In this document: positions 11,944 to 64,000 of the stretch, in pieces | How the letters are laid out: each line of letters begins with the position of its first letter | Numbering within the stretch: position 1 is the stretch's first letter | Source: Gammaproteobacteria bacterium | GTDB taxonomy: Bacteria > Pseudomonadota > Gammaproteobacteria > Steroidobacterales > JABDKV01 | DNA length: 64,000 nucleotides | Assembly: GCA_029862165.1 (NCBI GenBank) | Contig: JAOTXU010000002.1 | Coordinates: 178,556-242,555 of the forward strand | Direction: 5' to 3' | The notes under the pieces: model-generated | Told to the model about the DNA's origin: nothing | Seen by the model: the letters and a program-made list of their open reading frames with translations, nothing else | Databases searched by the model: none | Program-made: the position numbers and the translations under genes

Positions 11944-12070
11944 ACCCTCCCCCCGGAGGGGGGACGTACGCGGGGTTTGCCCCCCACCCCAACCCTCCCC
12001 CCGGAGGGGGGAAGTACGCGGGATTTGCCCCCCACCCCAACCCTCCCCCCGGAGGGGGGAGGGGGAAATA
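11944..12070. repeat. Three tandem GC-rich palindromic units, 48-bp period
   Basis: accctccccccggagggggg(g)a begins at 11944, 11992 and 12040; each unit is self-complementary (CCTCCCC/GGGGAGG); units are joined by near-identical spacers (g/a)tacgcgg(g)tttgccccccacccca. Confidence 0.9.
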
Positions 12071-33238: not shown

Positions 33239-33457
33239 GTAGGAGCGGCTTCCAGCCGCTCATTTCCACGAGCCGCGATTTCCACGACGATGCCGTAGGA
33301 GCGGCTTCCAGCCGCGATTTCCGCACGCCGCGATTTCCGCGCGCCGCGATTTCCACGACGATGCCGTAGGAGCGGCTTCCAGCCGCGATTTCCGCGCGCC
33401 GCGATTTCCACGCGCCGCGATTTCCACGACGATGCCGTAGGAGCGGCTTCCAGCCGC
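33239..33457. repeat. REP-like array: four copies of gtaggagcggcttccagccgc with shorter ccgcgatttcc(a/g)cg sub-repeats
   Basis: Copies start at 33239, 33295, 33366 and 33437 (spacings 56, 71, 71). gcggcttccagccgc is an imperfect palindrome. Confidence 0.93.
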
Positions 33458-33546
33458 GATTCGATGGGACAGCGCAAACAAAAATCAACAAACATTGCCT
33501 TATTTTTGCGGCAGCCTCAGGAAGCAGGGGTTGCTAATGTGCCGAG

Positions 33547-62563: not shown

Positions 62564-62962
62564 TTACGGCAGGGGCTTGCGATCCGGTTCCACAAAACCG
62601 GCGCGAGCGTTCTCTGACGCCAGGCATTCGGCGCTGTAATAGTCGGCAAGTATTGGACACTTCGACAGCAAACCCGGATTTCGCCCGCAAAACGTCTCGA
62701 AGCTTTCGCCGTCCATCATCGCTGCGGCAATCAGCCGGGTGTACGCTACCGTGACCGTATCGTGATACTGCAGGCTCCGGTCCAGTACTTCGCTGTTATA
62801 ACGCCGGATGCCAGCACGAATACGGATGAGGGCAGTTTCCAGCGGCGCGCGGCGTAGTTGTAACCAGGCCATATACACATGCGCCCGGTGGCTCCAGTGG
62901 GCGGCCGCTAGCGTGCAGTTTTCGAATTCCGCCAAAAAGCGTTCTTCGTCAGGCGTCATCAT
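62564..62962 (-). CDS. Uncharacterised His-rich protein overlapping rpiA
   Basis: [36 protein letters not shown]...[15 protein letters not shown]...[28 protein letters not shown]. Start within the rpiA 3' end. Confidence 0.75.
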
Positions 62963-63620
62963 CGCGTCGCAAAGTCTGCACTCCACGATCTGAGCCGATG
63001 AGCAAGACGTCGGCCGCGCGGCGAGCAAACAGACCGACTGTAACGACGCCGCTGATCTGGTTGATTTCTGCCTCCAGGGCTACCGGATCGGTAATATCGA
63101 GATTGTGCACATCGAGTATCTCGTTGCCATTGTCGGTTATGAAGTCTGCACGCCATTGGGGTCGGCCGCCCAGCGCAACCATCCGGCGCGCCACGTAGGA
63201 GCGTGCCATGGGGATCACTTCGAGTGGCAATGGAAAGGCGCCCAGGACATTGACGAGCTTGGATTCATCGACGATACAGATAAATTTGCGCGAGGCCGCA
63301 GCTATGATTTTTTCCCGTGTCAGCGCGCCACCACCGCCTTTAATCAACCGCAGATGGCGATCAGATTCATCTGCTCCGTCGATGTAGACCGTGAGTTGGC
63401 CGGCGCTGTTGAGGTTGGTGACGTTTATGCCGTGCTGCTCAAGCCGCCGCGTTGATTCTTCCGAACTGGATACTGCGGCGTCGATGCGCAGACGCTTCCG
63501 GGCAATCGCATCGATCAGGTGATTGACGGTTGAGCCCGTACCCACCCCAACGATGGCGTCGTCTTCGATAAATTTCAGCGCCGCCTCGGCGGCGCGGATC
63601 TTGCTCTCTTCCTGGGACAT
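62949..63620 (-). CDS. rpiA: Ribose-5-phosphate isomerase A
   Basis: [63 protein letters not shown]. Start ATG at 63620 (MSQEESK). Confidence 0.97.
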
Positions 63621-63638: not shown

Positions 63639-63694
63639 ATAGGGGACAGACCCCATTTTTTCACATTTTTTGAAAAAATGGCGTCTGTCCCTAT
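63639..63694. repeat. Imperfect inverted repeat with ggggacagacccc / gtctgtccc arms
   Basis: ataggggacagaccccatttttt (63639-63661) pairs with aaaaaatggcgtctgtccctat (63673-63694). Confidence 0.88.
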
Positions 63695-63703
63695 TTGAAA
63701 TAG

Positions 63704-63732
63704 AACAGGCCCGCCAAGGCGGGCCTGTTTTC
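63704..63732 (-). terminator. GC-rich stem-loop, probable terminator of the minus-strand repeat gene
   Basis: AACAGGCCCGCC-AA-GGCGGGCCTGTTTT, located 3' of the stop codon at 63780-63782 on the minus strand. Confidence 0.7.
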
Positions 63733-63779: not shown

Positions 63780-64000
63780 CTAGCGCTTCTTCGTCCGGCG
63801 TTTCTTCGTCTTACGTTTCTTCGTCTTACGTTTCTTCGTCTTACGTTTCTTCGTCTTACGTTTCTTCGTCTTACGTTTCTTCGTCTTACGTTTCTTCGTC
63901 TTACGTTTCTTCGTCTTACGTTTCTTCGTCTTACGTTTCTTCGTCTTACGTTTCTTCGTCTTACGTTTCTTCGTCTTACGTTTCTTCGTCTTACGTTTCT
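63780..64000 (-). CDS. C-terminus of a lysine/arginine-rich protein with (RKTKK)n tail (5' end outside window)
   Basis: On the minus strand: ...RKTKKRKTKKRRTKKR-stop (TAG at 63782-63780). No start codon in the window, so absent from the ORF track. Confidence 0.75.
   Translation of the reverse strand, partial: KRKTKKRKTKKRKTKKRKTKKRKTKKRKTKKRKTKKRKTKKRKTKKRKTKKRKTKKRKTKKRKTKKRRTKKR
63801..64000. repeat. Perfect 15-bp tandem repeat (tttcttcgtcttacg), about 13 copies, continuing beyond the window
   Basis: Direct reading; units from about 63811 to 64000 are identical. Confidence 0.97.

Follow-up and report, generated by a model that had tools for sequence, protein, structure and literature searches.

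A bacterial histone H1-like repeat gene at a conserved locus between an EVE-domain gene and rpiA

The tandem repeat that closes the window (the whole stretch of 64,000 nucleotides analysed here) is part of a bacterial histone H1-like gene at a conserved locus, where the order is 6S RNA, ygfA, an EVE-domain gene, the H1-like gene and rpiA. It is quite probable that this is a complete gene, and that its product is a bacterial histone H1-like protein acting as a nucleoid-binding polycation. The protein is small, rich in lysine and arginine, of low complexity, non-acidic, made of pentamers and hexamers, and variable in length among relatives, and by its sequence it can be filed among the bacterial H1-like repeat proteins (Hc2/BpH1/AlgP style), a descriptive class. 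The kind of protein is known; the locus and its promoter are apparently undescribed, and searches of open-licence papers returned no description of either. Coordinates are collected in Table 1.

Table 1. Features of the H1-like locus (window positions unless a contig is named)
Feature	Position	Strand	Remarks
H1-like gene, 3' part	63780..64000	-	open frame; stop TAG at 63780-63782
15-bp array (RKTKK)n	63799..64000	-	onward at C1:1-139 with two synonymous variant units
H1-like gene, 5' part	G000:C1:1-266 (locus L013)	-	start codon and RBS
rpiA, ribose 5-phosphate isomerase A	62949..63620	-	Pfam PF06026, E 2.6e-59; conserved downstream neighbour
perfect inverted repeat AACAGGCCCGCC-AA-GGCGGGCCTGTT	63704..63729	-	just past stop; read directly from sequence
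inverted repeat GGGACAGACCCCATTTTTT...AAAAAATGGCGTCTGTCCC	63643..63691	.	between H1-like gene and rpiA

The repeat array and a gene on two contigs

The last 202 bp of the window (63799-64000) are perfectly periodic at 15 bp and code for (RKTKK)n on the minus strand; TRF gives 63787-64000 with a period of 15, 14.3 copies, 98% matches and a score of 407. The minus-strand frame at 63780-63998 is open and reads KRKTKK(RKTKK)nRRTKKR-TAG. Twelve RKTKK units are the same in all five codons (AAG ACG AAG AAA CGT), and the terminal repeat unit is the only one in the window array that differs. The sequence-only reading had described such a run, ending RKTKKRRTKKR-stop and with about 12-13 units identical at the nucleotide level, and was right on both counts. 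A second minus-strand frame, RNVRR, is likewise open across the array and was rejected as the coding frame, being without a conserved start; the third has a stop within every unit and was rejected as well. Elsewhere in the window there are tandem arrays at 33262-33461 (71 bp, 2.8 copies) and 11944-12060 (48 bp, 2.4 copies), with 96-97% matches.

Contig C12 has 242,555 bp, and the window (G000:C12:178556-242555) runs to its last base, so that the assembly cuts the array off at this point. Another contig of the same genome, C1 (16 kb), opens with this array, oriented in the same way, adding about nine copies, two of which carry a synonymous AAA/AAG change. Its minus strand reads ...GACATTGGAGAACTGT ATG and then MATKKRKTRRKTTKRRKTAKKRKTTKRRKTTKKRKTTKRRKTAKKRKTKKRKTKK..., with the ATG at C1:266-264 and a GGAGA ribosome site before it, and the protein continues after the start as MATKKRKTRRKTTKRRKTAKKR..., where units of six residues pass into units of five. 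The in-frame start codon and ribosome-binding site, without which the sequence-only reading would have given up its proposal, are therefore there. The sole exact overlap between the ends of C12 and C1 is 1 base, and the two halves were joined in frame and in repeat phase; we infer from this arrangement that the two contigs are adjacent. In one congener (G003) and one further family member (G004) the EVE gene, the H1-like gene and rpiA lie together on one contig, and in another congener (G002) the H1-like gene is again split over two contigs, one with EVE and the other with rpiA.

The joined ORF encodes at least 161 amino acids (86 K, 36 R, 35 T, 3 A and 1 M), which is a minimum, as both contigs end within the repeat and the real repeat number may be larger. 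It is 76% K+R, has no acidic residues and carries a charge of about +122. The protein begins MATKKRKTRRKTT, and from residue 4 on it is rich in lysine and arginine. A basic tail attached to an N-terminal domain had been expected; with the 5' half recovered, the whole protein turns out to be repeat, and a separate N-terminal domain was rejected.

Locus, orthologues and leader

On C1, the H1-like gene is preceded by the EVE-domain gene (PF01878), ygfA (PF01812) and 6S RNA, and past the 6S RNA there are genes reading, from their translations, as zapA, pepP and ubiH. The same locus also holds tandem glycine riboswitch aptamers (L013:7438-7620) before an ORF reading as glycine cleavage T protein. 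On the other side, the inverted repeat just past the stop could form a terminator-like hairpin with a weak T tract, and a terminator consensus scan marked no terminator-like site, this hairpin included.

Among the 59 genomes of the order, rpiA is present in 53, and a K-rich ORF lies directly upstream of it in 39 of the 52 rpiA loci examined, some of these ORFs being cut by contig ends (as in G001, G002, G011 and G044) and most having a MA(T/K/R/A) start. The window gene has the conserved leader, the MA start, EVE/ygfA upstream and, given the presumed C1-C12 join, rpiA downstream, and is thereby placed in an EVE-rpiA orthologous group. Complete orthologues range from 20-26 aa to 209 aa (G004). 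The shortest are found in G032, G043 and the five f11 genomes G014, G027, G039, G049 and G058, and those of G032 and G049 come from single-contig genomes. In family f11 the orthologue has just 21-26 aa; two of its genomes also contain a second H1-like ORF of 77-97 aa elsewhere (L190, G049:C1:195000-196500; L191, G027:C7:420600-421900), the version at the rpiA locus having 22 aa. At the rpiA site no H1-like gene was found in the reduced f14 genomes, in f13 and in part of f6, and a wider scan of rpiA found many distant lineages without one. A single stop-interrupted copy was seen among the relatives (G057, L199). Searching with a relative's H1-like protein gave mostly weak, composition-driven matches in 25 of the 59 genomes, some of them to other proteins with basic tails.

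Conservation is striking in the stretch leading up to the ATG, in contrast to the coding sequence. The leader consists of TTGCTGGAATTTT, about 9 bases, TTGTATATACTC, about 5 bases, GCGG-ACAACCCGACACGGAGA, about 5 bases and the ATG, with TATA invariant in 33 leader sequences and GGAGA as the ribosome-binding site. Typically, 17 bp separate CTGGAA and TATACT, and a G+C-rich region follows. This spacing looks like that of a sigma-70-type promoter, and any regulatory meaning would follow from the pattern of the sequence; a sigma-70 consensus scan gave no match, the -35-like CTGGAA departing from TTGACA, and no Rfam family matches the leader.

A sequence-only model (R1) was built from the 33 leaders, the window species' own among them. 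At E<=1.2e-4 it matches 42 of the order's 59 genomes, once in each, although genomes that contributed a leader to the model do so by construction; the same applies to the leader on C1 (E 3.1e-9), which is one of the 33. The independent part of the test is a class-wide scan of 274 genomes. Here, 14 genomes from outside the order match at E<=1.6e-3. In all 14 the best match immediately precedes a K-rich ORF (58-195 aa), and EVE or ygfA is found a short distance upstream. The leader model alone has thus retrieved H1-like genes in other gammaproteobacterial families. Second matches in the same genomes, and most weaker ones, have no K-rich ORF; one weaker match (G101, E 0.0077) has both a K-rich ORF and EVE. 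The H1-like gene is probably transcribed separately.

Repeat units, selection and function

The N-terminal part of the protein is made of six-residue units (KTTKRR, KTAKKR, KTTKKR) and the remainder of the five-residue unit KTKKR. Probably the 15-bp unit arose when an 18-bp unit lost one codon (KTAKKR to KTKKR), and then spread by slippage or unequal recombination; as all units have lengths divisible by 3, the frame stays intact. The exact 15-mer occurs in species of the same genus in 2 to 6 copies, with six in G001 and two in G003, the latter scattered among hexamers, so the unit predates both the species and the pure array. The long pure array in the window species looks like a recent local amplification, and in this form the recent expansion that had been read from the window is supported. 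The suggestion that a frame-keeping 15-bp unit lets copy number tune protein length also agrees with the spread of orthologue lengths at this locus, from 20 to 209 aa.

When repeat copies were compared within each of 28 genes of at least 60 codons, differences at codon positions 1/2/3 numbered 1113/1263/1870, and the third position was highest in 26 of the 28. A pN/pS proxy was below 1 in all 28 genes (pooled 0.46); it is a rough one, with constant-shift repeat alignment and synonymous sites near saturation, and its direction alone was used. The pattern suggests that the DNA drifts and the amino-acid content is preserved.

In its composition, the absence of acidic residues, the length of its units and its variation in size the protein matches bacterial H1-like proteins and the precedents of Hc2, BpH1 and AlgP, and for this reason a nucleoid-binding polycation is favoured; the histone H1-like character proposed from the window fits as well, on composition, on the penta- and hexamer units and on length variation. 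By analogy with the same precedents, nucleic-acid binding is the most likely activity. A disordered polycation of K/R/T(A) pentamers and hexamers would bind DNA (and RNA) backbones non-specifically and could bridge or compact the nucleoid, with repeat number perhaps setting its valency or contour length. The shape of the promoter and the 6S RNA-ygfA-EVE setting would be consistent with growth-phase control.

The main rival to nucleoid binding, though an unlikely one, is a polycation that binds RNA or ribosomes and acts on translation or RNA condensates and not on the chromosome. K/R-only repeats could equally bind RNA, ribosomes or polyphosphate, the density of Arg and Lys is very high, and for Hc2 both higher-affinity binding to RNA and repression of translation are reported (PMC2848022). 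The locus also holds 6S RNA and an EVE protein that, in the passages searched of PMC7641849, is a putative binder of modified bases. The nearest named proteins are, on the other hand, described as DNA-binding or DNA-compacting (PMC2848022, PMC9239181).

Quite improbable is an AlgP-like polyphosphate-granule protein, that is, a polycation binding polyphosphate and tethering the granules to the chromosome. AlgP, a DNA-binding H1-like repeat protein, does localise to polyphosphate granules and spaces them (PMC9239181), and ppk1 lies within the window, while in congener G002 about 15 kb separate it from rpiA. Against this, genomes without ppk1 (G009, G013, G026, G038) keep orthologues of 75-111 aa, family f13 has ppk1 and no H1-like gene at the locus, ppk1 of other relatives is distant from rpiA (about 600 kb in the single-contig G049) or not on the same contig, and the N-terminal domain and repeats of AlgP are missing here. 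The presence of ppk1 does not track the H1-like gene, and polyphosphate was rejected as a general partner; the polyphosphate binding raised in the sequence-only reading does not hold as a general function, the ppk1-less relatives having kept the full-length gene. In the window species itself a polyphosphate role may exist.

That the array length is an artefact of assembly, with the repeat collapsed or inflated, is very improbable: both contigs do end inside the repeat and the gene is cut in four relatives too, but the 15-mer is found with variant copies in congeners G001 and G003, which confines the doubt to copy number. A microsatellite, selfish or neutral, whose frame is open by accident can be set aside almost entirely, for although perfect repeats expand readily and the RNVRR frame is open too, the start, RBS, promoter, locus and K/R/T/A-type composition are kept over many families with differing units, third-position differences are in excess, and only one relative has an interrupted copy.

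Returning to the H1-like protein, a wider reading is offered tentatively and at somewhat less than even chance. The gene may belong to an unrecognised, vertically inherited H1-like family present in much of the Gammaproteobacteria, tied to the growth-phase locus 6S RNA-ygfA-EVE and with its own promoter (CTGGAA, 17 bp, TATACT, G+C-rich start), in which the coding sequence may vary freely from about 20 to more than 200 residues and the number of repeats tunes chromosome compaction. If this is true, the family is marked by promoter and position and not by sequence. Domain databases almost entirely miss low-complexity H1-like genes, which are also difficult to align; here promoter and locus let orthologues be traced class-wide and reveal one protein whose length varies naturally over a ten-fold series. 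Such a series would make it testable in bacteria how polycation length relates to compaction or growth-phase behaviour.

Comparison with known H1-like systems

The window protein matches no Pfam or NCBIfam family. For HC2 (PF07382, cut-off 40 bits) there was no match to the protein, searched with a shortened repeat, and the best orthologue at the locus (G034) scored 33.1 bits; for NF038052 and NF038053 (cut-offs 135 and 80 bits) the protein again gave none and the same orthologue 13.2 and 28.7 bits. Basic H1-like stretches also occur on other proteins. In the window species' genome, an adenylate kinase of 410 aa (L205:519-1751, G000:C25, plus strand; PF00406, E 1.5e-53) has a Lys/Arg-rich, H1-like C-terminal tail of about 180 residues. 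A congener's DksA (L206:498-1325, G003:C46, minus strand) has a lysine-rich N-terminal extension of about 130 residues that exceeds the HC2 cut-off (45.8 vs 40 bits).

The neighbourhood has a counterpart in the zapBA-ssrS-ygfA-EVE arrangement, for which the passages searched of an EVE-neighbourhood survey give the same gene order, often with rpiA nearby, and name no H1-like gene (PMC7641849). As to the protein, the C-terminal domains of Pseudomonas AlgP/PhaF share disordered, H1-like, lysine-rich repeats with copy-number variation, and C-terminal fragments of AlgP have been shown to bind DNA (PMC9239181). AlgP has a helical N-terminal domain of about 124 aa and KPAA units, whereas the ORF here has neither and begins directly with MATKKRKTRRKTT. 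Chlamydia Hc2 (PF07382, NF038052), which condenses DNA, is also H1-like and is made of lysine-rich pentamers and hexamers, units that undergo in-frame duplication and deletion (PMC2848022); the protein here differs in being without the conserved non-repeat C-terminal part. Bordetella BpH1, with pentamers and size variants, is expressed in growth and dispensable (PMC2848022). Together with the Burkholderia H1-like proteins (NF038053), BpH1 shares with the window protein a small, wholly basic make-up, lysine-rich pentamers and size variation through repeat number (PMC2848022), the units being alanine-rich in those proteins and of K/R/T here, and the locus a different one.
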